Below, one piece after another: positions 1,727 through 64,000 of a stretch of 64,000 bases of DNA; positions within the stretch are counted from its first letter, which is position 1; each line of letters begins with the position of its first letter. Origin of the DNA: a virus. Made by a program: the position numbers and the translations under genes. The DNA lies in IMG/VR virus record IMGVR_UViG_3300017963_000257, positions 1 to 64,000 of that record. The stretch is one strand, 5' to 3'. The notes under the pieces are model-generated. The model made no database searches. It was not told the DNA's origin and was given only the letters and a program-made list of their open reading frames with translations.

Positions 1727-1739
1727 AGAGGGGGTTGTG

Positions 1740-3049: not shown

Positions 3050-3073
3050 AATCATCAATGTGGAGATGTGTGT

Positions 3074-3244: not shown

Positions 3245-3269
3245 ACGAAATACGAGTTCAAGGAGAGAG

Positions 3270-3547: not shown

Positions 3548-3556
3548 GGGGAAGAT

Positions 3557-22988: not shown

Positions 22989-22992
22989 TCCT

Positions 22993-23184
22993 ATGAAATT
23001 TGCAACCGGAGGTGTTGTCCCTGAAGTTGATAAGGCCGAAATACTCCAATCCATCATATTGGAACGAGGGACTGTTTTTGTTCCAAGGTCTACCCTGTCT
23101 AAATATGGGGAGGTGTTCCTCAAGAAACTCAATGGTGGAGACCCTGAAATTGTTGTGATTGATGAGGAAGGAAACGCTAAATGA
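22993..23184 (+). CDS. Small protein with tape-measure-like tail motif (63 aa)
   Basis: GGAGGT precedes ATG 22993. The sequence FATGGVVP ... LERGTVFVPRSTLSKYGEVFL ... LN matches the pattern LERGEYVINKDAVRAYG..L..LN found near the C-terminus of this phage's own tape measure (41500-41600). It seems to be a stand-alone copy of that motif. Role unknown. Confidence 0.6.
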   Translation: MKFATGGVVPEVDKAEILQSIILERGTVFVPRSTLSKYGEVFLKKLNGGDPEIVVIDEEGNAK

Positions 23185-24035: not shown

Positions 24036-24559
24036 GAAAGAACTTTTACGAGGTGTTCGGGTACACAAACCCCATGGAATGCATGACGCTACAAAGATTC
24101 GGCTTAAACGGATCGTGCCTTGAGATTGGGGCGTTCTACGGGAAGTCCACGGTGGCCATGGCGGAGGTGGCCATGATCGTCTATACAGTGGATACCTTTA
24201 AGTCGGATAAGATGGGAGAACGACAACTGGATGTTATAACGACCTACGACCAATTCATCCAGAACATTAAGGGTTACGACAATATCGTTATTGTGGAAGG
24301 TATGTCCTATGACGTTGTTCCAAAGATCCAATTGAAGTTTGACCTTGTGTTCTTGGATGGGCTTCACACATATGAAAACACGGCCATGGATATCAGGATA
24401 TGCTGGCCGAAACTAAAGCGCGGTGGAACAATGGCCCTTCACGACTATGGGTTCTATAAACACCCCGGGTGCAAAGAAGCGTTCAATGAGCTGCTCGGGG
24501 AACCAGAGGGAATCCAAGACACGGTAGCGTGGGTTACCAAAAGGAGAACGTCCCTGTGA
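24032..24559 (+). CDS. Class I SAM methyltransferase (175 aa)
   Basis: CLEIGAFYGKSTVAMAEVA is the glycine-rich SAM-binding motif I, VDTF motif II, and LVFLDGLHTYENT the metal/catalytic Asp-His region seen in Methyltransf_24-type enzymes (O-methylation of sugars or catechols). ATG 24032 forms an ATGA overlap with the previous stop. Probably methylates a sugar of the same glycan. Confidence 0.7.
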   Translation: MRKNFYEVFGYTNPMECMTLQRFGLNGSCLEIGAFYGKSTVAMAEVAMIVYTVDTFKSDKMGERQLDVITTYDQFIQNIKGYDNIVIVEGMSYDVVPKIQLKFDLVFLDGLHTYENTAMDIRICWPKLKRGGTMALHDYGFYKHPGCKEAFNELLGEPEGIQDTVAWVTKRRTSL

Positions 24560-25296
24560 AAATCTCAGTTATAACGGCATGGGGAAGCGAACCGCAGTTA
24601 GCACCCTACTTCTGCAGGCACTATGCCTATGCCGATGAGATTCTTGTCCTAATGGGACCAGGGGAATGTGAGGAAACAATCGAGATCCTATCGAAGTTCC
24701 CGAATACGCACTATCGTCTGATCGAATATCCCGATGGTAAATGGGATATGTACCGCAAACAGAAAGAGTTGTCGTGGGCGGCGCATAACGAAGCTCAGGG
24801 GGAGTGGGTTATTCTGGTGGATGCCGATGAATTCGTGTTTCCGATGGCCGGAGATAAGATCCCCATAATTGATCCGCGAGTGTTCCTTGGGATGGTCAAT
24901 GATGGAAACGTTCTGTGCGCGTTCATGTGGCACGTTTACCGGAATGTCGAAGACACGGATTTGGATCCTGAAAGGGCGCCGCTGTTTCAACGGCGGCATG
25001 GTGATCCAGAGATAGAGCATCATTACATCAAACCGATTGTGGTTAAGCCAAATGAGAGCCATATCGAATGGCACATCGGAGCCCATAGATATTTTGATAA
25101 CGAACACCTTAAAGTGTCGAGCAAGCGATTCGCGGGAGTTCACTGGCACTGGGCCGATGCTGACATAGCCATTGCGAGACATAATATGACGGCAGGTAGG
25201 ATAATCTCTAAGCAGCAATGGTTGACCGATCCAATAGACGAAAACGTTATCCGTGCAAGGTGTGACGCACACAGGAACGATCCGAGGTTGTTCTGA
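24556..25296 (+). CDS. GT2-like glycosyltransferase (246 aa)
   Basis: GTG start overlapping the previous stop, with an AAGGAG site. VKISVITAWGSEP starts a GT-A fold and ILVDADEFVF provides the D-x-D motif. A His/Trp-rich C-terminal part (HWHWADADIA) is present. Likely transfers a sugar; acceptor unknown. Confidence 0.7.
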   Translation: MKISVITAWGSEPQLAPYFCRHYAYADEILVLMGPGECEETIEILSKFPNTHYRLIEYPDGKWDMYRKQKELSWAAHNEAQGEWVILVDADEFVFPMAGDKIPIIDPRVFLGMVNDGNVLCAFMWHVYRNVEDTDLDPERAPLFQRRHGDPEIEHHYIKPIVVKPNESHIEWHIGAHRYFDNEHLKVSSKRFAGVHWHWADADIAIARHNMTAGRIISKQQWLTDPIDENVIRARCDAHRNDPRLF

Positions 25297-25297
25297 C

Positions 25298-25774
25298 ATG
25301 AAATTAGATTATAGCGTAAAATGCACAAATGACGAATGTGATTGGGATGGAAATTCGAGCGATTGTAAAGGCCTTGATAATCGTAACTGCCCAAAATGTA
25401 ATTCCATTGTTAAAGAACAGACAGAGAAAGAGGCTATACCATGGAGAAAGCAAGGCCTATGGATAGAACCAGATACGCTTTTAGAGTCCTCCTGCATCAT
25501 AATATGGGCGCAAAGAATTGATATTAAAACCGGCTCTTTCATGCCATGGACAGAAATAGCATGCATGCCAATAAGCGAAGAAGCTTTAAAGATAATCAAA
25601 AAAAGTGCTGTGGCTGGAACCTATATTACTTGCGAACGCCCCTGGAGAGATCACTGGGGAATTTGCCATCATGAATGGGTGGAGACAAAACAAGATGTGT
25701 TCAAATGCACAAAATGCGGAGTGTTTTGTGAGGATGCTATTGTTGTGAAAAAAATAAAAGAGTATTTGGAGTGA
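25298..25774 (+). CDS. Zinc-ribbon protein (158 aa)
   Basis: An N-terminal C-x4-C (CTNDECDW) with CPKC forms a zinc ribbon, and a second CTKC pair is near the C-terminus. Between them lies a beta-rich domain. It starts right after the preceding stop. Role in the cargo unknown; may bind another cargo protein. Confidence 0.55.
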   Translation: MKLDYSVKCTNDECDWDGNSSDCKGLDNRNCPKCNSIVKEQTEKEAIPWRKQGLWIEPDTLLESSCIIIWAQRIDIKTGSFMPWTEIACMPISEEALKIIKKSAVAGTYITCERPWRDHWGICHHEWVETKQDVFKCTKCGVFCEDAIVVKKIKEYLE

Positions 25775-25781
25775 AGATTGA

Positions 25782-26306
25782 ATGATCGAACAGCTTTACA
25801 AAGAACGTTGCGAAAAAGTAACGGACATTAACCAGCACCTCCCCCTTTTAAGGGAGCTGGCAGAATCCGTCAATCATGTGACGGAGTTTGGCGTCAGGTT
25901 CGGCAACTCAACCGTTGCATTAGCCGCGGCCCAGCCAATGATGCTGGTATCCTATGATATCGAACCGATTCCGAAAGACCTTGAGGCTAAGATCGTGGCG
26001 GGGATGCCAAGGTTTGGATTCCGGTTTATCCAGGCAAACGTGCTTGAGGTTGAGATTGAGCCAACAGACATGCTGTTTATCGACAGCCACCACACGTACA
26101 AACAGCTCAAAGAGGAATTGAGGCTTCATTCTGGAAAGGTGGCCAAGATCATTGCGTTGCACGACACGGAATTTTTCGCAAAGGTCGGACAGGACGGATC
26201 AACCCCAGGCCTGTGGCAGGCGGTAGAGGAATTCATGGCTGGAGGTAAATTTACCAACATGGACCATTACAGCAACAACAACGGCTTAACGGTGCTTTGG
26301 CGATGA
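25782..26306 (+). CDS. Class I SAM methyltransferase (174 aa)
   Basis: VTEFGVRFGNSTVAL is the SAM-binding loop; MLFIDSHHTYKQLKEELRLH carries the Asp/His pair, and IIALHDTEFF the late motif, as in the gene at 24032. Paralogous to it in layout. Probably a sugar O-methyltransferase. Confidence 0.65.
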   Translation: MIEQLYKERCEKVTDINQHLPLLRELAESVNHVTEFGVRFGNSTVALAAAQPMMLVSYDIEPIPKDLEAKIVAGMPRFGFRFIQANVLEVEIEPTDMLFIDSHHTYKQLKEELRLHSGKVAKIIALHDTEFFAKVGQDGSTPGLWQAVEEFMAGGKFTNMDHYSNNNGLTVLWR

Positions 26307-26977
26307 AACTGATTGAAGCGGCACAACAGAGAGAGAAAGGTCAGATCCTCAGATGGACACATTATTTTGAGGCCTATGACTTCCACTTTCAAGGACTGAA
26401 GCCCAAGAGACTCCTTGAGATTGGCGTCATGGGTGGAGGGTCCCTATGGATGTGGAAACGGTACTTCCCGGGTGCGGAAATCGTTGGGGTTGATATCGAT
26501 GAGAAGTGCCGGCAATGGGAGGATGAGGTCAAGGGGGTCAAGGTTTTTGTCGGTGATCAGGGTGACGTCGGTTTCTTGAAGAATCTTAACGAAATTGTTG
26601 GCCCGTTCGACATCATTATTGACGATGGAAGTCACAAGATGGACGACCAGCAAACCTCATTGGCTTTACTATTCCCCACTATGCCGGATGGAGGAATTTA
26701 TGTAATAGAAGATCTCCATACGTCTTATTGGCCTACTTGGGGAGGGTCTGTCATTGGTGGTAACACGACTCTTTCATTCCTAAAAAACATTATTGGATTT
26801 ATCCATAACTGGGCAAAAAGATCACACGAAGCCCAAACTTCCAATGACTACCTTGTCCCGGATAATTACTGGGAAAAGAACGTATCCTCCATGCACTTTT
26901 ACGATTCCATCTGTTTCATCTACAAGACTGGCCATGGCCAGAACAAGCTGGGCGAGGGAGGGGAATGGCATGGGTAA
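26303..26977 (+). CDS. CmcI-like class I SAM methyltransferase (224 aa)
   Basis: ATG 26303 in an ATGA overlap. LLEIGVMGGGSLWMWKRYFP is motif I, IVGVDID motif II, IIIDDGSHKMDDQ the metal-binding Asp/His segment, IYVIEDLHTSYW a late motif. The pattern resembles cephalosporin-hydroxylase/macrocin O-methyltransferase relatives, which act on sugars. Third methyltransferase of the cargo. Confidence 0.7.
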   Translation: MKLIEAAQQREKGQILRWTHYFEAYDFHFQGLKPKRLLEIGVMGGGSLWMWKRYFPGAEIVGVDIDEKCRQWEDEVKGVKVFVGDQGDVGFLKNLNEIVGPFDIIIDDGSHKMDDQQTSLALLFPTMPDGGIYVIEDLHTSYWPTWGGSVIGGNTTLSFLKNIIGFIHNWAKRSHEAQTSNDYLVPDNYWEKNVSSMHFYDSICFIYKTGHGQNKLGEGGEWHG

Positions 26978-27542
26978 TCCATTTATAGAGGTCGTTATCC
27001 CGTATGAGCCCTGCAAGAACGCTGGGAAAGCGTACAACCGGGCGATGGAACATGCATCTGACTGGGTTCTTATTTTGGATCATGACTTATTTCTGTGCAA
27101 CCCAAACTGGTACGAAGCGGCCCTTGACGCCGTAATGAAGATTGGACATAGGGCCGGGTGGATCTCTGCGGTTACAAACAGGACCCCTTGTGGAGTTCAA
27201 AAATCTTCCGGGTGCCCGGAAGGAAACGACAATCTGATTGACCATATCAGATGGGCCGAAAAAGTGTGGCGGCAGCACGGAAGTTCCACTATTCGCCATG
27301 ATGGCCTTGGGTACACCGGATTTTGGATTCTGACCCACAAAGAGGCCTGGTCAAAGGTTGGTGGGTTTCCCGAAACCAAAGGTTTTCACGTAGATGGGGA
27401 TTACTGCAAGGCCCTTTGTAATGCGGGGTACGAGTTTCATGTAATGCCAGGGGTTTACGTCTATCATTTGATGGACCGAAAGAACGAAGTCTGGAAATGG
27501 AATCACTGGAAAAACTACGGGGTTGATTGGAGTGTGCTGTAA
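26970..27542 (+). CDS. GT2-like glycosyltransferase, short (190 aa)
   Basis: GGGAGGGG precedes ATG 26970. IEVVIPYEPCKNAGKAYNRA opens a GT-A fold and WVLILDHDLFLCNP holds the D-x-D. Short for the family. A later FHVDGDYCKALCNAGYEF segment may hold the acid/base residue. Confidence 0.6.
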   Translation: MGNPFIEVVIPYEPCKNAGKAYNRAMEHASDWVLILDHDLFLCNPNWYEAALDAVMKIGHRAGWISAVTNRTPCGVQKSSGCPEGNDNLIDHIRWAEKVWRQHGSSTIRHDGLGYTGFWILTHKEAWSKVGGFPETKGFHVDGDYCKALCNAGYEFHVMPGVYVYHLMDRKNEVWKWNHWKNYGVDWSVL

Positions 27543-27568
27543 TGCTTGTGGCATGAGGAGGCGATCTT

Positions 27569-27850
27569 ATGTTTTGGATATGTAAAATGTGCGGCCGGTC
27601 AGTACGGCAGGAGAAAAAACCGAAATGCTGTTATGCGGATTGCATGGATAGCATTGAGAATATCAGCGATGAGGACGCCGGGAAGATGGGGCTCTTTATC
27701 CCTGAGGGTGAGAGGTTCGAGTTTCCGGGTGATGTCCGATGGGATCCGGATACCGGCAAGAGAATCGAGGCCCCGCTGGATTATGCGCAGGGGCAGTTCT
27801 ACACCCAGCGGGAGTTCCAAGAATCCATAATGGAAAGGGTGAGGGCATGA
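27569..27850 (+). CDS. Small zinc-ribbon protein (93 aa)
   Basis: GAGGAGGCGAT precedes ATG 27569. WICKMCGRSV and KPKCCYADC give a four-Cys zinc ribbon at the N-terminus; the rest is charged. Similar short zinc-ribbon genes are scattered through the window. Function unknown. Confidence 0.55.
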   Translation: MFWICKMCGRSVRQEKKPKCCYADCMDSIENISDEDAGKMGLFIPEGERFEFPGDVRWDPDTGKRIEAPLDYAQGQFYTQREFQESIMERVRA

Positions 27851-28065
27851 TCTCTGATGTTTTACAAGAACTTTTCGAAATGAAGGCTGGAAACAAAGAG
27901 ATGGCCTTTTTCTACGATCCAGAGAGTGAAGACTGGGAGTGCCATTTTGGAAATACAAGCGAATTTGTAATGCTTGGTGAGGCATCGGGTGAATTTATAA
28001 CTTCAGGCAAAAGTTTGCTGGAAGCTGCCGTCAATATGAAGTTTCTTTTGAAAGGATCAGCATGA
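27847..28065 (+). CDS. Hypothetical protein (72 aa)
   Basis: Starts in an ATGA overlap with the gene before and ends inside the next start. Acidic, with an aromatic segment MAFFYDPESEDWECHFG and a C-terminal helix. Not recognised. Confidence 0.5.
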   Translation: MISDVLQELFEMKAGNKEMAFFYDPESEDWECHFGNTSEFVMLGEASGEFITSGKSLLEAAVNMKFLLKGSA

Positions 28066-28901
28066 TCTCAATCGCCATAAACCTCGATACTCGCCCCGGT
28101 TTCCTTGAGCAAAAGACCGAGCAGGGGACCATGCTCAACGGGACCCGATCTCTCGATTTCTTCACCGATGGGATCTTGAATAAGGTACGGTTCTTTGAGG
28201 GTCACGACATTGAGGTGACCGTGTTCATTGATGTCCATGACCCATTGCCAACTGAAACAGAAGAATGGCTTTTGACGCAGCATTTCAGAGGACTGATCAA
28301 TAACTTGGTATTCAACAAGCACACAGAACAGTATCTTGGAGAATTTTTTCCAAAATTCAATGACCTCAATTTTCTGAATGCCATGATCCTAACAAGAGGT
28401 GACTACCTCGTGCATTTCGATGGAGATATGGCGGCCTTCATTAAGGACAGGAATGTCATCAAAGAGTGGCTATCCTGGCTTGACAGTGGCCGATTCGATT
28501 TCATCTGCTATCCAAGCCAGTATTCCCCGGCGCCTGCAGTGGATGGCCGGTACAAATCGTACTGGTGGAGCAGCACTCGTTTTTTCATCTGCAAGAGGGA
28601 ATTCATTGATTACACAGAAATCATTAAATGTTTAAGAAGTTCAGAGTACCTGTATGGAAAGTACGGCACTGAAAATGAACCACGTAACCCATGGCTTGAA
28701 CACGTGCTCGGGATGATGGCTGGAGGACAGGAAAGAGTCTTCTATCCCCCGATTCAATCAAAAAGGTACCTGATGTTTTCATGGTCGAGATACTTTTCTG
28801 GAGTTTTAGCGAAGCTGAATGAATGGCCTTACGAAAAGGTCGTTGAGTATGTTGGCGGGATTAGCTATCCATGCGATGTTTCAGCAAAGGAGATGAGATG
28901 A
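28062..28901 (+). CDS. GT-A-type glycosyltransferase-like protein (279 aa)
   Basis: VTVFIDVHDP and YLVHFDGDMAAF carry Asp-rich motifs of a GT-A nucleotide-sugar site; the C-terminal half is rich in Trp and Tyr and has a conserved-looking WWSSTRFFICKREF segment. Overlaps both neighbours. Likely transfers a sugar to a glycan intermediate. Confidence 0.6.
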   Translation: MISIAINLDTRPGFLEQKTEQGTMLNGTRSLDFFTDGILNKVRFFEGHDIEVTVFIDVHDPLPTETEEWLLTQHFRGLINNLVFNKHTEQYLGEFFPKFNDLNFLNAMILTRGDYLVHFDGDMAAFIKDRNVIKEWLSWLDSGRFDFICYPSQYSPAPAVDGRYKSYWWSSTRFFICKREFIDYTEIIKCLRSSEYLYGKYGTENEPRNPWLEHVLGMMAGGQERVFYPPIQSKRYLMFSWSRYFSGVLAKLNEWPYEKVVEYVGGISYPCDVSAKEMR

Positions 28902-29974
28902 AAATAGCACTCACAGGGAATGTCTTCCCGTTCGGAATCGGCCATGCTTATGGTGGCGAAAGAATCCTCGGGTATCTGGCCAAAGGGTTGGTCCGGTTGG
29001 GCCATGAGGTTTATCTATTCGCAAGGGAAGGAACCAATGTTCCAGAAGCGACAGATTACATCCCGGTAGGGCCCCTGACCAATGCGTATGATGTCCACTT
29101 TGAGGCGGCCAAGGAGTATTTTGAAAAAGCCGGGTTTGAACCTGATATTTATTTCTGCGGATACTTCGGGGAGGGCTGGTATCCGGAAACGCAAGAGCGA
29201 TGGCCATACTGTGAACTCACATGGAATGTCTGGTGTCATGCGGCGTGGCAGCTACAACAGGTCCCGTTTAACGTGGTGTCGTACTCCTGCGTTCTGCAGT
29301 CAGATTTCAGGGTGCAGGGGATTGAAACCACGATGATCCACTATGGGATACCGCGAGACCTGTATGCTTTTCAGCCAGACAAGGATGACTATGCCTGCTG
29401 GATCGGCAAGCTGGAGGGGGGAAAGGCTCCGCGTATCGGGATTGAACTGGCCAAGGCTGCTGGCGTTAAGCTGGCAATCATGGGACCGCCGTATAACACA
29501 GGCACATTCTGGAACGAGGTTTGCCCTTTCATCGATAACGAGAACATATTCTGGGTGCGCGGTGTTGATGACGGTATGAAGTACGAAATCATGAGCAAGG
29601 CCAAATGTTTGATCTACACGAATGACAACACATGGAAGGAGCATTTTGGGATCATTATGGCCGAGGCCCTGGCCATGGGAACCCCGGTTGTGGCTATGAA
29701 CCGGATCAATCAGGACTGTTCGGTTGTGGTAGACAAAATCATCGACCACGGAAAGCACGGATTCATCCTCAATTATGGGGACTCCACCAATCTCCAGGAG
29801 ATCCTCGACACCGGCGTACCCCTGATCAACCGGATTCACGAGATCGACCCTGCGGATTGCCGGGAACAGTTTGAGAAAAGGTTCACGGCCGAGCTGATGT
29901 CCAGGCGTTATGAATGGCTGTTTGAACGAATTGCACAGGGCGAACGATTTACCAGCGTGGAGGTGCCGTTTTGA
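28898..29974 (+). CDS. GT4-type glycosyltransferase (358 aa)
   Basis: A GT-B fold: MKIALTGNVFPFGIGHAYGG is the N-terminal Rossmann loop; EHFGIIMAE fits the E-x7-E retaining motif and ALAMGTPVVAMN the following sugar-nucleotide binding strand. ATG 28898 in an ATGA overlap with AAGGAGATGAG before it. Likely uses a nucleotide-sugar donor. Confidence 0.75.
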   Translation: MKIALTGNVFPFGIGHAYGGERILGYLAKGLVRLGHEVYLFAREGTNVPEATDYIPVGPLTNAYDVHFEAAKEYFEKAGFEPDIYFCGYFGEGWYPETQERWPYCELTWNVWCHAAWQLQQVPFNVVSYSCVLQSDFRVQGIETTMIHYGIPRDLYAFQPDKDDYACWIGKLEGGKAPRIGIELAKAAGVKLAIMGPPYNTGTFWNEVCPFIDNENIFWVRGVDDGMKYEIMSKAKCLIYTNDNTWKEHFGIIMAEALAMGTPVVAMNRINQDCSVVVDKIIDHGKHGFILNYGDSTNLQEILDTGVPLINRIHEIDPADCREQFEKRFTAELMSRRYEWLFERIAQGERFTSVEVPF

Positions 29975-30189
29975 AATTGAATCATTTCATTTGTCCATCG
30001 TGTGGACACGATTTTTATGCAGAGGGGAGTTGCTCAAAATGTGATGCGTGCCAACGAGTATTTTATTTGTCCGAATCTGTAGCAAGCCGGAAAATAAACT
30101 TATCCATAGAGCGCGGATGTCAAGTTGACCCATGCTTACTGATCGATCCAGACTTCTTTAGGGAAGGGACAACGGGGGGAACACCTTGA
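29971..30189 (+). CDS. Small zinc-ribbon protein (72 aa)
   Basis: TTG start overlapping the previous stop (TTGA). CPSCG and CSKCDAC give a two-pair Cys zinc ribbon at the N-terminus. Not recognised beyond that. Confidence 0.5.
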   Translation: MKLNHFICPSCGHDFYAEGSCSKCDACQRVFYLSESVASRKINLSIERGCQVDPCLLIDPDFFREGTTGGTP

Positions 30190-30899
30190 TCTACGATGCC
30201 CAAATAGAAACCCGGCCGGACGGTGACATGAGGGTACTCAAGTACCTTGAGGGTAACGGGTATTACAACTGCATTGACTTTGGAGGCGTCCAGAGGCCTT
30301 GGGCGGCCAGGCACGTGACAACCTATGTTGACCTGACAAAGCCAGAGGACTGGGAAAAACGGTTTCCGGATATGTACGATAACTATCCTGAGATATGGAA
30401 ATCGAAGGTCGTCAATGCAGACATTGACCGTAGCGATACCTGGAGCCAGCTTGGAGAATACGATTTTGCCATCAGCACCCACACACTGGAACATCTTGCG
30501 AATCCCAGTGAGTTCCTACGGAGACTGCCGAGGGTGGCCAGCCGGGGATACATCGCCATCCCCAATAAGGTGTTTGAACTTGGCCGTGGACGCGAGATGA
30601 CGGAGGAAGGCCTTACCCGTTGTGGGCTGATCGGGTTTTACAGGGGGGCCATGCCCCACAGGTGGATCTTTACGATCAAAGAAAATGTCCTATGGATATT
30701 CCCGAAGCTCGGATCCCTTGATCTGGTTGAGTTTCCATTCGAGGATGAGCTGCGGCACTACAAGCCGATAAAAGACGGGCAGCTGGGATTTATGTGGGAG
30801 AAGGATATCCCGTTCAGGTATGTGACGGACAAAGACATTGTTCCGAATCCCCAACGTGCAATCGAATTCTACAAGGAGCATTTAAATGAGGGTTTATAA
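30186..30899 (+). CDS. Class I SAM methyltransferase (237 aa)
   Basis: TTG start overlapping the previous gene. NCIDFGGVQRPWAAR looks like a modified SAM-binding loop, and FAISTHTLEHLANPSEFLRR is the hallmark motif IV of Methyltransf_11-type enzymes. The fourth methyltransferase in the cargo. Substrate not known. Confidence 0.65.
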   Translation: MIYDAQIETRPDGDMRVLKYLEGNGYYNCIDFGGVQRPWAARHVTTYVDLTKPEDWEKRFPDMYDNYPEIWKSKVVNADIDRSDTWSQLGEYDFAISTHTLEHLANPSEFLRRLPRVASRGYIAIPNKVFELGRGREMTEEGLTRCGLIGFYRGAMPHRWIFTIKENVLWIFPKLGSLDLVEFPFEDELRHYKPIKDGQLGFMWEKDIPFRYVTDKDIVPNPQRAIEFYKEHLNEGL

Positions 30900-31668
30900 C
30901 ATCGTATTGACGTCCCAACCGAATGTTGGCGACAAGATGGCCAGCCCACTTGATTATTTCAAGTTCCCAGTGCCTGCTGAAAAAATCGATACGTCCAGTG
31001 GCATGAGCTTCTTGAATGATCAGTTCATCATATACGGAGGCGGGGGCCTCATTCACCTTCCAGCGGCAGATTACAACGGAGGGGTGATGGAATACCTTGA
31101 GGACATTTGCACACTATCGCGCTGGATGGTGTCGTGGGGAGTTGGTCATAATATTCACCACATCCGGGAGATAGAGTACCCGAAATCATTTGTAACGAAG
31201 TTCGCACTTCATGGCGTGAGGGATATGTATCAGGCCCTGCCCTGGGTTCCCTGTGCCAGTTGCATGAGCCATTTATTTGATTGGGAGTATCCCATAACCA
31301 GGAAAATCATGGCTGCAGGCCACCATCTTGATTCCTATGAAAGCCTGGATGGCTTGCCAAAAATGGAGCATACCCAAGTAACGCCAGCCGAGGCCGTGAA
31401 GGAACTTGCGTCGGCAGAAACAGTCATAACCAACTCGTATCATGGCGCCTACTGGGCGGCCCTGCTTGGCAGAAAGGTGATTGTTTTCGATCCGATGTCG
31501 TCAAAGTTTTTTGCCATGCCATCCAGTATCGTCATTGCGTCACCGACTACGTGGATGACGAAGATTCCCCACGAAAACAAGATTTTGCTTGATCTATGCA
31601 GGAGAGTAAACACTGAATATTACAACAAGGTTTTAGGCTTTTTAGAGGAGGTAAAAAATGAAAGATAA
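30886..31668 (+). CDS. Polysaccharide pyruvyltransferase-like protein (260 aa)
   Basis: NVGDKMAS (family N-terminal loop), FIIYGGGGLIHLP and TNSYHGAYWAALLGRKVI are the family's signature segments. Known members attach pyruvate ketals to polysaccharide sugars from phosphoenolpyruvate. At 260 residues it is shorter than many members. It overlaps the previous gene by 14 bases. Confidence 0.7.
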   Translation: MRVYNIVLTSQPNVGDKMASPLDYFKFPVPAEKIDTSSGMSFLNDQFIIYGGGGLIHLPAADYNGGVMEYLEDICTLSRWMVSWGVGHNIHHIREIEYPKSFVTKFALHGVRDMYQALPWVPCASCMSHLFDWEYPITRKIMAAGHHLDSYESLDGLPKMEHTQVTPAEAVKELASAETVITNSYHGAYWAALLGRKVIVFDPMSSKFFAMPSSIVIASPTTWMTKIPHENKILLDLCRRVNTEYYNKVLGFLEEVKNER

Positions 31669-32416
31669 ACTGATACTTGGATGCGGGATTGGAAGATGCG
31701 GGACTAGCTTTTTGTCCTACTTCATGTTTCTGAATCCACGTATTGCCGTATGGGACGGCCCCGGTATGGGGGAATTGTTCGAACGGATAAACAGGTCTCA
31801 GGGGAAGCTACTCCTTTCGGACCTTCATTCCGTGTGGGGCGATGAATATCAAGAGTCCACTCATGGCAACACATGGTACGGTGCCAGCCAGTTCGAAGCG
31901 TACTACAATAAACGGATCAAGGAGCGACGGGACGGGGATACATATTTCATATCCCACGTCATGGGGGAAAGATGGTATTCGGTTTATAGGGACAGCTTCG
32001 ACTGCGACCTCTTCGTGATCTATTGCGGCCGGGATATGGTCGAGCATTACCGGTCTTTCAAGAAATGGTACTACGTTGAGGGATGGAATGCGGAGGCCTA
32101 CCTGGATCGAATCAGGGGATCCCTGATTGAAATGGACAAAATCCTCAGTGCCGGCATCCCCGTAACGGCCATTAATGTGGCCGACTACACGTTGCCGGAT
32201 CTAAGGAAGAGAATGGGCAACGTCATGAAAAAGGTCGGCCTGTCTCTCAGTGCGGAGCAGACAAACTTCATGAGGTACAGAAGGAAGCTTGGTCCCTCGA
32301 AACCTGATGTCAATCACCAGGCCGACGATGAGCTTTTTTCCGAGTTGAAAAAGGTTAAGGACTTTGAGGTATTGAAGGCAAAATACGATGCTCTGAGGAC
32401 CAAATATGAAGCCTGA
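31658..32416 (+). CDS. Sulfotransferase-like protein (252 aa)
   Basis: GCGIGRCGTSFLSYFM is a 5'-phosphosulfate-binding loop of the PAPS-dependent sulfotransferase type; VIYCGRDMVEHYRSFKKW resembles the 3'-phosphate-binding region with Arg and Ser. A charged C-terminal coil follows. Would sulfate a sugar or lipid. A GAGGAGGTAAA site precedes the ATG. Confidence 0.6.
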   Translation: MKDKLILGCGIGRCGTSFLSYFMFLNPRIAVWDGPGMGELFERINRSQGKLLLSDLHSVWGDEYQESTHGNTWYGASQFEAYYNKRIKERRDGDTYFISHVMGERWYSVYRDSFDCDLFVIYCGRDMVEHYRSFKKWYYVEGWNAEAYLDRIRGSLIEMDKILSAGIPVTAINVADYTLPDLRKRMGNVMKKVGLSLSAEQTNFMRYRRKLGPSKPDVNHQADDELFSELKKVKDFEVLKAKYDALRTKYEA

Positions 32417-33581
32417 CATTACATTGATCTTTCCGTCGAGCCCGTTTCTCTTGAATCAGGCGGTGTTCCCTCCGCTGGGAATACTGTACCTGTCGGCCTA
32501 TCTCAAGGCGCACGGCCTGTCCGTCCAGTGTCTTGATATGGGCCTTGGACATACACCAGACATGGCCGAGTCTGAAACAATAGGAATTTCGCTGACAACC
32601 CCGCAGAGATTCGAGGCGTTTAGGTTGGCGAAGCATTTCAAGAGTCAAGGGAAGAGAACTATTGCTGGTGGCCCTCACGCAACCCATATGGCATGGGAGT
32701 GTCATGAGAATGGGTTTGATTACGTCATTCCGGGCTACGCTGAAAGGCTGCTGACGGAGTTTCTTTCGGTTGATAGCACACCGATCGATGTTTACCCTGA
32801 CCGCTATGCGCTGCCCATAGGCGATTACCGCTACGAGATTGACGGTAAACCGGCTACACCGATCATGACGTCACGCGGATGTCCCTACCATTGCAGTTAT
32901 TGCGGGAAGATTAATAGCGAATTTTACCTTCAGAGCGCCGAAAGAACCGTTGCTGAGATCAACCAGATCTATGACAAATTCGGGTTTGAGGCCTTCATGA
33001 TTTATGACGACGTGTTCATTGCCAGCAAAAAGCGGTTGGCCAAGATGGTCAACATGATCGGGGATAGAAGATACACGTTCCGGTCGTTTGCCAGGAGCAA
33101 CCTTCTGGATGACAAGACGTGTTCGATGCTCAAAAAGCTGGGGATGGTAGAGGTCGGCATTGGGATTGAGAGTGGATCCGACGAGGTGCTGCAGCTTAAC
33201 ATGAAGGGAACGACGCGCAAGATGAATACGAGGGCCGTGGAGAGGCTCCACAGGCACGGAATCAGGGCCAAAGCCTTTCTGATTGTGGGTCTCCCAGGGG
33301 AAACCACGGAAACGATCACCGAAACCGCGGACTGGATCGAAGAGGCTCAACCCGATGATATTGACATTTCAGTATTTCAGCCGATGCCGGGCTCACGGAT
33401 ATTCGCAGAACCCGAGAAGTGGGGGATCCATTTTACGTACAATGGAAAACCAGGATGGTACAAGGGGACCCCCGGGATGTACGAAGCGAATGTGTATGTA
33501 GGCGATCTGACCGGAGAAGAGATTGTCCAGTGGAGGGACCTGCTGGAAAAAGAATTCAAGAAACCGGAGTTATTGAGATGA
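32406..33581 (+). CDS. B12-binding-type radical SAM protein (391 aa)
   Basis: Residues 1-130 look like the cobalamin-binding Rossmann half (PPLGILYLSAYLKAHGLSV, AGGPHATHMAWE), but the classical D-x-H-x-x-G motif is not clear. The radical-SAM half carries CPYHCSYCGK (C-x3-C-x2-C), FMIYDDVFI and GIGIESGSDEVLQLNMKGTT. Relatives methylate or rearrange sugars and lipids. Overlaps the sulfotransferase gene by 11 bases. Confidence 0.75.
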   Translation: MKPDITLIFPSSPFLLNQAVFPPLGILYLSAYLKAHGLSVQCLDMGLGHTPDMAESETIGISLTTPQRFEAFRLAKHFKSQGKRTIAGGPHATHMAWECHENGFDYVIPGYAERLLTEFLSVDSTPIDVYPDRYALPIGDYRYEIDGKPATPIMTSRGCPYHCSYCGKINSEFYLQSAERTVAEINQIYDKFGFEAFMIYDDVFIASKKRLAKMVNMIGDRRYTFRSFARSNLLDDKTCSMLKKLGMVEVGIGIESGSDEVLQLNMKGTTRKMNTRAVERLHRHGIRAKAFLIVGLPGETTETITETADWIEEAQPDDIDISVFQPMPGSRIFAEPEKWGIHFTYNGKPGWYKGTPGMYEANVYVGDLTGEEIVQWRDLLEKEFKKPELLR

Positions 33582-46132: not shown

Positions 46133-47446
46133 ATGAAAAAGGTATCCTTTCTTTCAATCTTTTGGATGATTGCTTTCGTAGGGTGTGCATATGCAGACTC
46201 CACTATCAGCAATCTGGATGAACTGACCGCAGCAGATTCCGCAGACGAAATGATTATCGTTGATGATTCCGCTGGAGCCACAAAAAAGATCACCAAGGCA
46301 AACTTGTTTGCATCTCCAGATCCTATAGGGAGCACTACGCCAAGCACTGGAGCTTTTACGACAGTCGGTATCGGGACAACGACCGTCCCTCACGGTGGAG
46401 TAGGTGCTGCTAAGCTGGCAATTGATGGAGCCTCTCCTCAAAACATACAGATATCAACCACCACTGATGATTATCCAATATTCCAATTTCGGGCATCTGC
46501 TCACGACGGTGCATCAATAGGCTTGGATTGTTATTTTGATGGATCATGGAAATCATCTGATGCTGGATCGAACTTTCTTCTTTTAAAGGCAAGCGATACG
46601 TTTACCACTTATTACGATTCCGGTGTAGCGCAAGGTGGGGCGGTCACATGGAACACGGGTATTTCGCTTGATACATCAGGGAAGTTAGGCATTGGAACGT
46701 CCACGGTCCCCCACGGCGGGGTAGGTGCTGCTCAAGTTGCTATTGACGGGGCAACACCATTTCTGCAAATAACAACCACAGCGGATAATTACCCGGTCTT
46801 AGGTTTTCGTCCGGCAGCCCACGATGCCGTTGGATTATTGTTTGACTGTTATCATGATGGTGCGTGGAAATCGTCTGATGCTGGATCGAACTTTCTATTA
46901 CTGAAAAGTAGTGATTTGTTAACTTTCTACTATGATGCAGCAGTGGCCCAAGGGGGCGCAATAGGATGGAACACGGGAATTACACTGAATGCATCGGGGA
47001 TTGTATTTATGCCAGCCGTGGCGGTCCATGATTTAGCGGGTGACGATAACGAAACAGCCCTTTATATCGACCCTGACGATGGGGAGATGGGGTACAATTC
47101 CTCTATCGCTGCATCAAAAATCAATATCCAAAATCTCACAGACTCAAGTTGGATTTATGCCCTAACACCCCGTAAATATAATCGACGTGTCAAATTATCA
47201 GACGCACACTGGGACGAATCGGGCGAAGTCAGAAAGTTTGTCCCCGCAAAATACTCTAATACGGAGTTCACCCAGGCTACCGAAATGGGTCTGATTGCAG
47301 AAGAGGTCTATGGGGTCAAACCGGAATTGACGTTCTCAGTGGACGGGAAATTGATGGGTGTGAACCTTGAAAAACTCATTGTACCCATATTGGTAGAAAT
47401 GCAAAAGCTGAAGGCTGAAATCGAACAACTAAAAGCACAGAAGTAA
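46133..47446 (+). CDS. Exported tail fibre with S74-type chaperone (437 aa)
   Basis: GGAGG precedes the ATG. MKKVSFLSIFWMIAFVGC is a Sec signal peptide, possibly a lipobox. Two tandem modules of about 93 residues start IGTTTVPHGG and IGTSTVPHGG. The C-terminus (residues about 330-437) is an intramolecular chaperone of the Peptidase_S74 type: MGLIAEEVYGVKPELTF, then a trimerising coiled coil. Such chaperones self-cleave after fibre folding. Confidence 0.65.
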   Translation: MKKVSFLSIFWMIAFVGCAYADSTISNLDELTAADSADEMIIVDDSAGATKKITKANLFASPDPIGSTTPSTGAFTTVGIGTTTVPHGGVGAAKLAIDGASPQNIQISTTTDDYPIFQFRASAHDGASIGLDCYFDGSWKSSDAGSNFLLLKASDTFTTYYDSGVAQGGAVTWNTGISLDTSGKLGIGTSTVPHGGVGAAQVAIDGATPFLQITTTADNYPVLGFRPAAHDAVGLLFDCYHDGAWKSSDAGSNFLLLKSSDLLTFYYDAAVAQGGAIGWNTGITLNASGIVFMPAVAVHDLAGDDNETALYIDPDDGEMGYNSSIAASKINIQNLTDSSWIYALTPRKYNRRVKLSDAHWDESGEVRKFVPAKYSNTEFTQATEMGLIAEEVYGVKPELTFSVDGKLMGVNLEKLIVPILVEMQKLKAEIEQLKAQK

Positions 47447-47513: not shown

Positions 47514-47942
47514 ATGTCTCATATCGATCCCACACTAATTGAAGCTGGATTGGTTCTCGGAAGTTTTATAGGCGGTGCCTTGGGAGGTATTTTGGGGGGG
47601 TACAAACTGTCTGCCAGAAAAAATAATGGAAGGGTTCATGCCTCTTCAGAACTCACGCTTGTACGAAATGAGATAGAGGGATTAAGGAAAGCCATTGAGA
47701 ATATCCCGGTTATTGAAAGGTCGAAAAAAACCTCCGGTGCCTTACACATATCAGAGGAAGGCCTTCAAAAGCATGACGATCTAAGAACCCTCTTGACCGA
47801 AAAGTATATAACAATAGACACGCATACCCTGCTTTGCGAAAGAACGGCTGCCAAGTTTGAAAAGGGCATTGCTGACGCCCTGAAAAATAATAATACGGAA
47901 CTGCTCAAAATTCTAAAGGATAATGGTGTTGTCCCCCAATGA
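47514..47942 (+). CDS. Candidate holin/membrane-anchored protein (142 aa)
   Basis: One Gly-rich membrane helix (about residues 10-30, LVLGSFIGGALGGILGGY) followed by a soluble coiled-coil C-terminus. Could be a holin or a spanin-like protein. First gene after the fibre; forms a cassette with the genes to 49278. Confidence 0.5.
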   Translation: MSHIDPTLIEAGLVLGSFIGGALGGILGGYKLSARKNNGRVHASSELTLVRNEIEGLRKAIENIPVIERSKKTSGALHISEEGLQKHDDLRTLLTEKYITIDTHTLLCERTAAKFEKGIADALKNNNTELLKILKDNGVVPQ

Positions 47943-48175
47943 GCACCAAGGAAATCGAACAAAAAGAGGCTGAGAACGGGACGCTTTCCATACAGCACAT
48001 CCTTCGTAACGGGCTTTATTCGATGCGCAAGACTCTGAATGACGCCAGGAAAGCCATTGATGAAACGGATCAACGGGTCGAGTGCATGATGGAAAGCCTT
48101 CAGCTACTGGTAGATGAGGAAAGGAGGCGCCGGGGAATTGGTACCGATCAAGAAGGCCAAGGAACCGAGGTCTGA
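47939..48175 (+). CDS. Hypothetical helical protein (78 aa)
   Basis: Overlaps the previous stop by 4 bases (ATGA). A charged helix throughout, no membrane segment. Probably works with the flanking genes; not recognised. Confidence 0.5.
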   Translation: MSTKEIEQKEAENGTLSIQHILRNGLYSMRKTLNDARKAIDETDQRVECMMESLQLLVDEERRRRGIGTDQEGQGTEV

Positions 48176-48323
48176 ATCGGTCAAGTGCCAATGTGGTGGT
48201 ACTTATCGCCAGGTGTATGCTGTATCCGGAACTCTTTATGAGTGTGATCAGTGCGGCGACCGGATCCAGACCCTGGCCGAAGTGCGAAAAGGAAAAACTC
48301 CGGATATGATTTGGTTTGGATGA
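48138..48323 (+). CDS. Zinc-ribbon protein (61 aa)
   Basis: TTG 48138 has AAGGAGG ten bases upstream; the in-frame ATG 48114 is an alternative. CQCGG and CDQCGDR form a four-Cys zinc ribbon. Overlaps the previous gene. Role unknown. Confidence 0.5.
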   Translation: MVPIKKAKEPRSESVKCQCGGTYRQVYAVSGTLYECDQCGDRIQTLAEVRKGKTPDMIWFG

Positions 48324-48428: not shown

Positions 48429-48677
48429 ATGGGATTTTCATCAATGTTTAAATATTTCGGGCTTGCGATGGAAGTGGCAGAAGAGGCCGCTGAAGTGCTG
48501 GTAAAGGTTAAGGGGGTAACCGCAGATGATTCCCCTGGTGGCGAGGAAATCACGGATGAAGAGATGAAAGCTCTCGTCGAGTCTCTTGACGAAAATTTTT
48601 CGAACGTCGTGACGACGATCTGTAGGGAATGCGGGCTTCCTGTTAAATCCGTTTCCGTAAAAGTTGACATGGAATGA
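48429..48677 (+). CDS. Hypothetical acidic protein (82 aa)
   Basis: AAAGGAG precedes ATG 48429. Acidic, mostly helical, two Cys (CRECG). No recognised domain; location in the lysis-like cassette. Confidence 0.5.
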   Translation: MGFSSMFKYFGLAMEVAEEAAEVLVKVKGVTADDSPGGEEITDEEMKALVESLDENFSNVVTTICRECGLPVKSVSVKVDME

Positions 48678-48688: not shown

Positions 48689-48874
48689 ATGGAATGGATC
48701 GCCCTAAATTGGTGGTGGATTTCGCCCATTGCAATACCAATCGTATTGGGTGGGCTGAAGTACACCGCCAAGAAAACAAAATGGGTGTGGGATGACAAGG
48801 TAATTACCCTACTCGCTGGTGTATGGGATATGTCCAGAGGTTTGCAGCCAAGAAATATCACAGGTAAAAAATGA
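48689..48874 (+). CDS. Holin-like small membrane protein (61 aa)
   Basis: One clear hydrophobic segment (WWISPIAIPIVLGGLKY) and a shorter one, followed by a basic tail (RNITGKK). Compact and placed immediately before a phospholipase-like gene with a 4-base overlap, consistent with a pore-forming holin. Function inferred from context. Confidence 0.5.
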   Translation: MEWIALNWWWISPIAIPIVLGGLKYTAKKTKWVWDDKVITLLAGVWDMSRGLQPRNITGKK

Positions 48875-49278
48875 AGCTTCCCGAAATCAATGAAATCGTT
48901 ACGACCGACCATGCCCTTGAATTGTGCCGACACTTTGGTCTGGATTACCTAGTGGACCGAATCGAGGCTGATCCAGATCAATTCAAGAGCTGGAAATTTG
49001 ACGGCTGTTCGTGCCTGCCCGATAAGGTGATGGGCCTGTTTACCGGTTGCGATTGGCGGGATATCACTTATAAGTGCTGCCTACCGCATGACCTGTGCTA
49101 TGCCTATGGTGATCCGGGAAACGACGCCGAACGCGAACGGGTCGATAAGCAGTTTTGTGCCGATCTGATTGCCAAGGCAAAGATGATCCCTTGCATCGCC
49201 AATACGTTTATGATGGCTGTTCGTTATGGCGGGGCTGAAGAATTTGGCCTGTCGTTTTCCTGGGGCTTTGCAAGATAG
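48871..49278 (+). CDS. Phospholipase A2-like protein (135 aa)
   Basis: CCLPHDLC (C69-C76, with H73-D74) matches the PLA2 active-site signature CC-x2-H-x2-C. An upstream DGCSCLPD could provide the calcium loop and VDKQFCADL resembles the second catalytic Asp region. Members hydrolyse the sn-2 bond of phospholipids with calcium. Overlaps the membrane gene before it; a terminator follows. No muramidase-like endolysin is visible nearby, so this may be a lysis enzyme. It carries no signal peptide. Confidence 0.65.
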   Translation: MKLPEINEIVTTDHALELCRHFGLDYLVDRIEADPDQFKSWKFDGCSCLPDKVMGLFTGCDWRDITYKCCLPHDLCYAYGDPGNDAERERVDKQFCADLIAKAKMIPCIANTFMMAVRYGGAEEFGLSFSWGFAR

Positions 49279-49323: not shown

Positions 49324-50907
49324 CTATTGTTCGGTTAGCGCTGCGTCCATGTCCTGCAGGACGAGATCGAATTCGTCCGGGGGGACGTCATTGATTTCGG
49401 CGTACTTCCCCTTTCGTAAAACCTGGAGAAACTTTGCCTCGCCCAACTGCTCTTTGTATTGCAGCATTGCAGACTGGAACGCCGCTTTCATTCGGTTTTG
49501 CTGCTCTTTCTCTTTGAGCTTAGGGTCGTCCTCGTCTTCCCCATCATCCATGCCTTGGAACAGGTTGGATCCTATCTGTCCCTCGTTCTGGGGAGGCGGT
49601 TCTTCTTCGGTTTGAGGCGGTTCTGCCTGCCCGGTAGAGTCTTGGGGCGGTGGGGCGCTGGCACGAGGCTTATACCCGGGCTGGCCCTCGGCTCGATAAC
49701 CCGCTCCCATGACACGGCGCCACTTGTCAAAGAAGAAATCTTTGTCCTCTGGGGATAGGCCATCAATCTCACCACGATGCTTCTCTTCCCATGCTTTCAG
49801 ACCCGTTTTCTTGAGGCCTCCAATATCATCCTTCAGGGTTTTCTGCTCTTCTTGAGGCGGGGTAGATCCACCCTCCCCCTTTGGCGGATAGTTGGTTGCC
49901 TCCCATTCCTTAAACGCCTTCGTGAATGCCTGCGGATCTCCCAGCGCATCATCCATGATCTCGCTTTCCGCCCTGCCATACTCTTCCGTGCATGCAGAAA
50001 TGAACTTGTCCACATGCTCCTTCGAAAGGTTCTCGGCCTGGATCAACTTGGAAAACTCTTCGCCCATATCCGGTGGCTGTGGGGGTTCGGTAAGGTCTGC
50101 AGGACCGCCTCCCAAGGCTCCACTTAGGAACGGGTTGAAGCCGCCCCCTGTCTGCCCCATATCAGTTTCATTGTCGAAGGAAACTGCCTTCATGAACTCG
50201 ATTGATGCCGGGACCATCTTGGATGAATGCTTGAGCACGGTCTTTAGGTTCATATCCTCCGGCCATACCAGCCACGGAGAGTCCTCGTTTTTATATTTGA
50301 TTGCGTTTTGGTACGCTTGGGACCGGTCACGTCTCTTGTGAATGTCATCGATGAACATGAATTCGGGGTGCTTGGTACCGTCCTTGAGGACCCACACACA
50401 ATAAGCCCCGAATATTTCACCGCTGGCACCACTTTTTCTCTTTTCACGGTCGAGGTACCACGGCCTATGAATGATCTCCCGCTCGGTGCCATATTTAATG
50501 TCGAATTCATCGTTTTCGTAAACGTTGAACCCATACACGTCAGAAATGGTACCGGTTCGCCTGGCTAAATCGATCAGGCCCTGATAGCCTAACTGGAACT
50601 GGCATTCGAGAACCTTTTGCCATCTCCCCCCTATCTGCTTGTTGTTGTTGTACGGAATGAGATATGCCCGTCCCAGTACGGGTTCCGTTCCGAGCTGGGC
50701 CGCCTGCATTATCGCCCCAAAGATGCTCTCTCGGGTGCAATCGAGGATGCGCGGGTTTTTTAATGCCGTCGTAAACACGATCCTGAGCAACCGTTCTGCG
50801 TCCATCCATTTAGGCATGGCAGCCTCAAATTGTTTCTGTTTGGCGAACAGTTCCTCCCTCAACGAAATTGCCTTTTGCTGTACCACTGTTAGTTGCTGTG
50901 TTGCCAT
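49324..50907 (-). CDS. recT: RecT-like single-strand annealing protein with long tail (527 aa)
   Basis: Residues about 1-250 show the RecT pattern: N-terminal helical region, AAQLGTEPVLGRAYLIPYNN, QFQLGYQGLIDLARRTG and the ERYNNKPEFMFIDDIHKRRDRSQAYQ-type segment. It binds single-stranded DNA and anneals complementary strands. The 270-residue C-terminus is acidic and Pro/Gln-rich, and such a long extension is unusual. Works with the nuclease at 51821. Last gene of the minus-strand operon. Confidence 0.8.
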   Translation of the reverse strand: MATQQLTVVQQKAISLREELFAKQKQFEAAMPKWMDAERLLRIVFTTALKNPRILDCTRESIFGAIMQAAQLGTEPVLGRAYLIPYNNNKQIGGRWQKVLECQFQLGYQGLIDLARRTGTISDVYGFNVYENDEFDIKYGTEREIIHRPWYLDREKRKSGASGEIFGAYCVWVLKDGTKHPEFMFIDDIHKRRDRSQAYQNAIKYKNEDSPWLVWPEDMNLKTVLKHSSKMVPASIEFMKAVSFDNETDMGQTGGGFNPFLSGALGGGPADLTEPPQPPDMGEEFSKLIQAENLSKEHVDKFISACTEEYGRAESEIMDDALGDPQAFTKAFKEWEATNYPPKGEGGSTPPQEEQKTLKDDIGGLKKTGLKAWEEKHRGEIDGLSPEDKDFFFDKWRRVMGAGYRAEGQPGYKPRASAPPPQDSTGQAEPPQTEEEPPPQNEGQIGSNLFQGMDDGEDEDDPKLKEKEQQNRMKAAFQSAMLQYKEQLGEAKFLQVLRKGKYAEINDVPPDEFDLVLQDMDAALTEQ

Positions 50908-60780: not shown

Positions 60781-61716
60781 TCAGCGGAGTTGAGCGGAGG
60801 CAGCTTCCCAGGCTTTATACACCCTATCCCTGATCATCTTGGGGGTCGGGTGGAGATACCGTTCGCGGATTGTCTCCACCTTGTCCCCCAAGAGAAAGGC
60901 GATGTCCTCAATCCTCATGTTTCCAGTGTAGAACAGGTAGGTGGCCGTGTAATGGCGAAACGTATGAGGTCCTCTACCATCCTTCCCGTTCTTCAGGCCC
61001 AGGTCTTGCAACATCCGTGTGATTTCAGATTTGATCTTGTCGACATTTGGGAAAAGACAGCTTGTTTTATTGTTAATCACACAATGTGTCTTTTTGTATT
61101 CCGCATTTGCCAAAAGTTCGGCCAACAAAACAGCTGTTTTCCTTGAGAAAACAACAGGCCGGGGCTCAGTCTTCCCCTGGATGAAAACACACATTTCGTA
61201 AAGGTGAATATCTTCCATCCTGATCCCCGCTATCTCTCCAACCCTGGCGCCGGTTTCTACCAGTAGGCGCACGACCACTTGAAATTCTAGGGCGCGAGTG
61301 CTTGCAGTCAGGACATTCCCATTGTTAAACCGATATGCAAGACATTTCTCAATGTCTTCCTCTGTGAACCAGCGGTCCAGATGCTTCCTTTTGTTTTCCT
61401 GCCGGTCTTTGTTGGGAATCCGGTAGGTGAACTCCGTTGGATACCCCGCCCACTTCAGGAAAATCTTGGTGCAGTTTAAATACTGCTGTACGGATTTTCC
61501 AGACAGACCTTTGGATTCAAGATATGTTGCGAAGTCGCCAAGGTTGCTTGATACAACCTCAAATTTCTCATGACATATGGCGGCTGGACAGCCCAGCGCC
61601 GGAGATTCTTTCATGAAATTCTCAAGGTGTCCAAGCACATACCCATATAGTTCCCGCGTAGACTTCGCAAGGCCTTTGACTTCAGGTGATTCAAGGTATT
61701 TCTGAATTATGTTCAT
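60781..61716 (-). CDS. Second tyrosine recombinase, Xer-like (311 aa)
   Basis: R158 (ETGARVGE), K182 (GKT), H251-x-x-R254 (HTFRH) and Y287 (RERYLHP) are in the expected order; the usual H/W before the nucleophile is Asp278 (GDKV). An SAM-like N-terminal domain (residues 1-95) is present. Its start overlaps the stop of the fibre gene by 4 bases, so the two are co-translated. Confidence 0.75.
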   Translation of the reverse strand: MNIIQKYLESPEVKGLAKSTRELYGYVLGHLENFMKESPALGCPAAICHEKFEVVSSNLGDFATYLESKGLSGKSVQQYLNCTKIFLKWAGYPTEFTYRIPNKDRQENKRKHLDRWFTEEDIEKCLAYRFNNGNVLTASTRALEFQVVVRLLVETGARVGEIAGIRMEDIHLYEMCVFIQGKTEPRPVVFSRKTAVLLAELLANAEYKKTHCVINNKTSCLFPNVDKIKSEITRMLQDLGLKNGKDGRGPHTFRHYTATYLFYTGNMRIEDIAFLLGDKVETIRERYLHPTPKMIRDRVYKAWEAASAQLR

Positions 61717-62522
61717 GGAACTCTCCTTTTCAATTCCTCGATCTGTTTCTGCTGGGCCTGTATGGCGCCGATCGCCATAGTCAATAACTCGTAGATATCC
61801 ACACGCTTTCCGTCATTGGATAGCACCCACGTTGGCATATCCTCTGCGAGAAAACCCAGCCTCGTGGTACCGTCGCCACCAAATTCTTCTTTGTATTGAT
61901 ACAGGGAAGGAATCATCTTCATGATCATTTCCAACATGACAGGGTTGGCGGATTCATCCAGTTTCTGAATATTCTTTTTGTACTCGCTCGAAGAAGCGTT
62001 TACGAAACTGGTTGCGCCTACCTTCCCGTTGACGTGGAGCTTGTAGTCTGGAAAGCTCTCGCCTATACCGACATTGCCTTGGGTGTCAATTCTGAGGTAT
62101 TCAGTCCCGGGGAGATATCCACCCATGAGGTAAGAAATTGAGAAGTCGTACAGCCCATATGGCTGACCCACAAGCCATGCCTCAGTGCCTTGTTTAATCA
62201 GAAGTCGAGCGCCGTTGATATTCGAGATATTGGTGAATGATGCCATAATGCCGTCTATGGAATCCGGCTTTTCGACCTCTAAGTTGTTAACCGGGTTTTC
62301 AATGGTGCCCATAGGCCCCTGCGGTCCTTCCGGCCCTTCCTCCCCCTGCTCACCTTGTGGCCCCTCTGGCCCTTGGGGGCCTATCAACGTAGCCGTTGTC
62401 TGTGTCGTACCATCTGGGAACTCTATCCCCTGCGGCGTGAGCTTGGTGCTGCCGGCGAAAGCGGTTCCGTGTAACAGTACGATCCATACCACAAAAAATA
62501 ATTGGAAAAGATGGTTTTTCAT
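61713..62522 (-). CDS. Exported collagen-like fibre with S74-type chaperone (269 aa)
   Basis: ATG 62522 with AAAGGAG; TTG 62528 is in frame. A Sec signal peptide (MKNHLFQLFFVVWIVLLH...AFAG) is followed by a short collagen repeat (GPQGPEGPQGEQGEEG) and a beta stem. The C-terminus (EYKKNIQKLDES, LGFLAEDMP, KQIEELKRR) is a Peptidase_S74-type chaperone. It likely forms an exported trimeric fibre. Followed by a recombinase in the same operon. Confidence 0.7.
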   Translation of the reverse strand: MKNHLFQLFFVVWIVLLHGTAFAGSTKLTPQGIEFPDGTTQTTATLIGPQGPEGPQGEQGEEGPEGPQGPMGTIENPVNNLEVEKPDSIDGIMASFTNISNINGARLLIKQGTEAWLVGQPYGLYDFSISYLMGGYLPGTEYLRIDTQGNVGIGESFPDYKLHVNGKVGATSFVNASSSEYKKNIQKLDESANPVMLEMIMKMIPSLYQYKEEFGGDGTTRLGFLAEDMPTWVLSNDGKRVDIYELLTMAIGAIQAQQKQIEELKRRVP

Positions 62523-63706: not shown

Positions 63707-64000
63707 TCATAATCCTAACATATCTAAAGTGTCTGGATTCGCAATCTTGGGGTTTTTGAAATTGAGCAGGTGGTTAAATTCATGGCCGAGGATGGCTTGA
63801 TTCACAACAATCTTGCCACCCACCCGTTTTCCAAAAATGTGTATCTCATTGTTGGTGTTGGCATAGCCAGCAATAGGGGAACCGTAAGCTGCGGCCTTCT
63901 CCCAGTTAAAGTGCTTTCGGTCTCCAACGATAAAGACCTTAACCTTCTCCAACTCGACAACCTCATATACGTCAGGCGTAGTCTCGATGGAGGCGAACCC
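63707..64000 (-). CDS. Metallopeptidase-like protein, 5' end beyond window
   Basis: ILGHEFNHLLNF is an H-E-x-x-H zinc motif near the C-terminus, typical of zincin-type metalloproteases or toxin-like peptidases. The reading stays open to the window edge, so the start is not seen; TTG 63952 is a possible internal start only. Role unknown. Confidence 0.5.
   Translation of the reverse strand, partial: GFASIETTPDVYEVVELEKVKVFIVGDRKHFNWEKAAAYGSPIAGYANTNNEIHIFGKRVGGKIVVNQAILGHEFNHLLNFKNPKIANPDTLDMLGL

Follow-up and report, generated by a model that had tools for sequence, protein, structure and literature searches.

A phospholipase A2-like gene closes the late operon

The window, i.e., the whole stretch of DNA analysed here, comprises bases 1–64,000 of a 73,680-base virus record. 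Its late genes form a rightward run that includes a tail tape measure protein (PhageMin_Tail, E 2e-34), a hub-like protein and a tail-fibre-like protein (46133–47446, + strand; PHROG 1330 "tail", E 3e-5), the last structural gene, followed by five small genes and a phospholipase A2 (PLA2)-like gene (48871–49278, + strand). The latter is the last gene of the run, in agreement with the sequence-only reading, which had placed it at the end of the late operon. A leftward gene, RecT-like by eye (49324–50907, − strand), converges on it from the other side.

The small-gene module past the tail fibre, all of it on the + strand, is opened by a gene for a protein of 142 aa that has one hydrophobic segment, at its N-terminus, and no significant family match (47514–47942). 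Genes for a 78-aa protein (47939–48175), a 69-aa protein with four cysteines that is zinc-ribbon-like by eye (48114–48323) and an 82-aa acidic protein (48429–48677; its resemblance to a 60-aa protein from the lysis module of relatives is non-significant, E 2.6) come next. The fifth gene (48689–48874) codes for a 61-aa protein that, by its hydropathy, is a candidate holin: it has a single hydrophobic segment (peak Kyte–Doolittle value 1.42). No holin family in Pfam, PHROG or NCBIfam matched it. Its stop codon overlaps the start of the PLA2-like gene by 4 bases (ATGA), and the two genes are therefore probably translationally coupled. The earlier claim that a holin-like gene precedes the PLA2-like gene thus stands as far as the hydrophobic segment and the adjoining position are concerned, but with only one such segment and no holin family match the case is weaker than was stated. 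Searches for relatives with the hub protein and with the 61-aa protein found none, and the Pfam matches of neighbouring genes to "Romo1" and "CdaS_N" were weak and all below cut-off. At the left end of the window (592–3706, + strand), successive genes encode small proteins, each with one or two hydrophobic segments, that are possible alternative holins.

The PLA2-like ORF starts with ATG and codes for 135 aa; its boundaries are exactly those given in the sequence-only reading, and the CCLPHDLC signature, described there as intact, occupies residues 69–76. The protein contains D44 at the calcium-loop position, C46, an H73-D74 dyad and a partner aspartate, D92. An alignment of 18 relatives shows no variation at C46, H73, D74 or D92, and D44 is present in 17/18; the invariance of M1 and P4 supports the ATG start. 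Substitutions between the window gene and its relatives are chiefly synonymous (pN 0.17–0.22, pS 0.75–0.85), and it follows that the gene is under purifying selection. The pattern DG[CA]S...HD..Y...[VIA]D..F occurs once, in the window gene, among 0.86 million six-frame residues of the window record and five related phage records, and in none of 40 shuffled genomes. The invariant residues, the pN and pS values and the uniqueness of the pattern relative to shuffled genomes rule out a chance ORF; the gene is real. No secretion signal was found in its product, whose N-terminus, MKLPEINEIVTTDHALELCRHF, has no hydrophobic leader. Nor was a peptidoglycan-hydrolase domain found in it, PF09056 being the sole Pfam match.

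Assignment to the PLA2 superfamily

The PF09056 model (prokaryotic PLA2) matches the window protein with E 8e-4 and 20.4 bits, which is below the curated cut-off of 29.4, and matches 17/18 aligned relatives, the best with E 6e-7. When a profile of the aligned relatives was compared with PDB, the PLA2 chains 8k1w, 4aup and 7ygk ranked top (E 0.007–0.05). In the active-site comparison proposed together with the sequence-only reading, DGCS, HD and the partner Asp of the window family line up with 8k1w and 4aup. A search of NCBIfam and a tblastn search of annotated phages with the window protein returned no match; tblastn against plasmids gave two weak matches, one of them annotated as phospholipase A2.

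With the group XIV secreted PLA2 enzymes covered by PF09056 (Streptomyces SvPLA2, Tuber TbSP1; E 6e-7 to 8e-4), the window protein shares the His-Asp dyad, the Asp next to His and the aligned DGCS loop. Unlike them, it scores below the cut-off, has no secretion signal and has a longer loop between DGCS and HD. Two AlphaFold2 models were of low confidence (mean pLDDT 61 and 69; effective alignment depth about 1.8), and neither Foldseek nor VIA-align gave a usable PLA2 match for them. The second places H73 and D92 on successive helices (62–77 and 85–101), as in PLA2, an arrangement that we do not lean on given the model's low confidence. The earlier claim of a PLA2-like protein with an intact active site is nevertheless supported by PF09056, the invariant H73/D74/D92 and the profile comparisons with PDB chains and with DUF1353 (below). 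These comparisons lend good support to PLA2 ancestry of the window protein, and PLA2 activity appears likely.

Kinship with DUF1353 and the proven phospholipase TtaP

The window family was compared by hhalign with a profile built from 18 phage DUF1353 proteins (A2). The two profiles aligned with a probability of 93.6, E 2e-7 and a score of 46.2, versus scores of at most 16.6 for 30 column shuffles and 12 for the reversed control. PHROG 6098 is matched by both families, both profiles match the same PDB PLA2 chain, and in a Mu-like prophage (L123) a gene of the window subfamily and a DUF1353 gene are three genes apart. The PF07087 (DUF1353) model itself gave no match in the window record (G000) at E up to 1 and matched one of the 18 relatives of the window protein, at E 0.12. 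Judged from the profile comparisons, the window family and DUF1353 share a common ancestor.

TtaP, a DUF1353 member, is a PLA2 by assay and lipid analysis, and its activity requires the partner Asp; the protein has no signal peptide and remains inside the cell (PMC11525133). Deletion of ttaP caused no envelope phenotype, and the authors of the TtaP study mention DUF1353 relatives in prophages (PMC11525133). DUF1353/TtaP and the window protein have in common a length of about 125–150 aa, the lack of a signal peptide, a DG-x-S loop, an HD motif and a downstream Asp. The window protein differs in its CCLPHDLC signature with extra cysteines, its own 135-aa layout and the lack of a PF07087 match, and identity between the two is, by eye, under 25%.

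DUF1353 genes lie beside lysis genes in other phages

Like the window gene, which by its position may belong to a lysis cassette, DUF1353 genes of phages are often found at this location. In 8/16 annotated phages, an endolysin, holin or other wall hydrolase gene lies within four genes of DUF1353, a figure with no matched baseline behind it; by our rough, uncomputed estimate, 15–20% of genes would be expected that near lysis genes. The phages with such neighbours include three Fusobacterium phages, which are not independent of each other, Nitratiruptor NrS-3 (where the holin is recognised by Pfam), Cobetia Carin1, Pseudomonas Cygsa01 and Dulem virus 31. In Bas80, the order is endolysin, endolysin, holin, spanin, DUF1353. 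The remaining eight phages, mostly large or poorly annotated, show no such lysis gene within four genes. DUF1353 proteins fall in PHROG 1158 (e.g., L135: 2926–3267), which is labelled "tail assembly chaperone", yet the family holds a proven PLA2 and its genes are often found in lysis cassettes.

Sister phages and the search for an endolysin

Related phages were found through their terminase. One of them, G003, is syntenic with the window phage over the head and tail genes, and the last genes of its late operon code for two TM proteins and a tail protein, followed by an M15_3 endolysin and DUF1353. In G424 and G428, the end of the late operon consists of a TM protein, an M15-like protein, another TM protein and a lipoprotein, and G427 also has an M15-type protein at the corresponding position. 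The window phage has there a TM protein, small genes, a TM protein and the PLA2-like gene, with no M15 protein. Neither DUF1353 nor the window family was found in 25 further related phage fragments, most of which are partial.

The sequence-only reading had recognised no endolysin near the PLA2-like gene, and the wider search agrees with it. Pfam revealed none in the window phage, where most late genes and the main early genes were scanned, M15_3 had no match across the whole 73.7-kb record, and a home-made M15 profile of relatives found no endolysin in this phage either. Such profile scans miss unusual endolysins. The record is, moreover, incomplete, because a sister contig (G018), which shares 26.5 kb with it at 99.99% identity, continues for another 4.2 kb on the left side. 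This extension carries, by eye, sigma-factor-like and ParB-like genes and no recognisable endolysin. Since the record is incomplete and since G004 and G426 carry their M15-type gene elsewhere than at the late-operon end, an endolysin of the window phage may lie in the missing part. The window phage apart, an endolysin is present in every phage with the window gene or DUF1353 whose lysis module was readable.

The window subfamily is mainly chromosomal

Public collections hold 17 bacterial loci of the window subfamily (57–74% identity), mostly in Desulfobacterota, whereas the phage carriers found there are the window phage and one Mu-like phage (two contigs). The subfamily is patchy, single-copy and mainly chromosomal: matches were found in 45 of the 389 genomes from the class, and in about 25 of these they are close full-length homologues. 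The predominance of Desulfobacterota chromosomes among its members and the place of DUF1353 beside holin and endolysin genes are two points that the window alone does not reveal. The nearest relative of the window copy is a chromosomal gene (74%, L004), and in a tree with low support the window copy does not group with the copies of the Mu-like phages.

Of 12 genomes that have DUF6765 at full length, six carry it within 1.4 kb of their PLA2 gene, an outcome whose probability under uniform placement is about 1e-14; no DUF6765-type gene was seen adjoining the window gene. The DUF6765 protein of L011 bears a weak resemblance to zinc-dependent phospholipase C. Chromosomal PLA2-like genes adjoin a DUF6765 gene in L009, L011, L016, L018, L019, L117 and L119–L121. 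Other upstream neighbours include an N-acetylmuramidase gene (L014; a fragment in L013) and CHAP and metallophosphoesterase genes (L007 and L015). The PLA2-like genes of L001 and of the Mu-like prophage L123 lie in the early/middle region, outside the lysis cassette, next to a GemA-like gene and, in L123, a Mu Gam gene. The endolysins of these Mu-like carriers are an amidase in L123 (above cut-off) and an M15-like protein in L001 (sub-threshold).

A possible role in lysis

In textbook phage lysis, a holin, an endolysin and a spanin act, and many endolysins, which lack a signal peptide, build up in the cytoplasm in folded form. The single reading that we consider most probable, albeit tentatively, is that the window gene codes for a cytoplasmic PLA2 that helps lysis; we favour it because of the DUF1353 parallel and the position in the operon, which are its main carriers. 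On this reading, a small cytoplasmic PLA2 belonging to the group XIV/DUF1353 superfamily would be produced late in infection, from the gene that closes the lysis module, and would, like those endolysins, be stored inside the cell as a folded protein that lacks a signal peptide. Opening of the inner membrane by the candidate holins (48689–48874 and/or 47514–47942) would let it meet phospholipids and calcium. It would then remove fatty acid chains from the phospholipids of the membrane; lysophospholipids and free fatty acids produced in this way would help to rupture the inner or the outer membrane. In doing so, it would assist a separate peptidoglycan-cutting enzyme, none having been recognised in the incomplete record. 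The suggestion of the sequence-only reading that the enzyme may assist lysis is thus backed indirectly, by DUF1353 in the lysis cassettes of many phages and at the late-operon end of G003. Against it are the mostly chromosomal subfamily, the Mu-like copies outside the lysis cassette, the PF09056 score below cut-off and the lack of an envelope phenotype when ttaP was deleted (PMC11525133).

Passenger genes, too, are commonly found where a late operon ends, and the gene may be a host-derived moron or auxiliary gene, a Desulfobacterota chromosomal gene that keeps its host-family job, perhaps membrane-lipid remodelling with DUF6765, and has no special part in lysis. We regard this as a real possibility, though a doubtful one. 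It agrees with the closeness of the window copy to the L004 gene and its separation from the Mu-like copies, with the patchy single-copy distribution on chromosomes and with the DUF6765 association, the L011 protein included; however, the tree support is weak and the window gene lacks a DUF6765-type neighbour. Moreover, the window gene is coupled to a TM gene within the late operon, and its remote homologue DUF1353 occupies the same place in G003. The early/middle location of the Mu-like copies, beside GemA-like and Gam genes, could instead suggest a lipase that alters the infected-cell membrane, e.g., in superinfection exclusion or counter-defence. Since the window gene comes last among the late genes and the Mu-like position may reflect a separate acquisition, such a function is improbable here.

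It is still a little less probable that the PLA2 replaces the endolysin, lysis proceeding through membrane hydrolysis alone. The sequence-only reading had raised this, pointing to the lack of a recognisable endolysin nearby; indeed, none was recognised among the scanned proteins, which cover most of the record, and M15-type proteins are present at the corresponding end in four relatives (G003, G424, G427 and G428). A proposed precedent is the patatin-holin cassette of phage WO, where a phospholipase gene likewise lies by a small holin-like gene near tail genes and no canonical endolysin is recognised (PMC9203015). The WO patatin, however, belongs to an unrelated Ser-Asp fold, no peptidoglycan has been detected in the WO host, and the role of the patatin in lysis is putative too (PMC9203015). 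These data lend the claim no support: in the other carriers of DUF1353 or of the window gene, the readable lysis modules all have an endolysin; the window record lacks some kilobases (G018 has 4.2 kb more at the left end), the M15-type gene lies elsewhere in G004 and G426, and unusual endolysins escape profile scans. Equally improbable is a protein that has the PLA2 fold but no activity, or that cleaves a different ester, with no role at the membrane. The sub-threshold Pfam score and the low-confidence models without a PLA2 match would fit it, but the catalytic triad positions are invariant in the 18 relatives and common to the proven enzyme TtaP (PMC11525133).

If a lysis-helper PLA2 is indeed encoded here, PLA2 in a lysis cassette would add a lipid-directed class to the known lysis enzymes. 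Because a loose PLA2 family is kept beside lysis genes in other viruses, viruses may attack membrane lipids besides the wall at exit. We consider it unlikely, though worth stating, that phages commonly use PLA2 as a separate lysis agent on membrane lipids, with the window gene and DUF1353 as two branches and the window copy perhaps taking over the spanin or even the endolysin step. A prophage-borne PLA2 near the lysis end is also known from streptococci, namely Sla, which, unlike the window protein, is a secreted lysogen toxin with a signal peptide. The link from a Desulfobacterota phage gene through DUF1353 to TtaP turns a widespread phage family, the "tail assembly chaperone" PHROG 1158, into a lysis-lipase hypothesis that can be tested with laboratory phages of E. 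coli, e.g., Bas80.

Other features of the window

Between the head and tail genes (20001–33581), there are sugar-/methyl-transferase-like and radical-SAM-like genes, partly kept in a relative (G001). The − strand at 60781–62522 encodes a tyrosine recombinase and, adjoining it, a second tail-fibre-like protein, which has an S74 chaperone domain and an N-terminus resembling a signal peptide. At the right end of the window (63707–64000, continuing to 64144 in the record), the − strand encodes a lipoprotein-like protein that contains an HEFNH motif and has no Pfam match.
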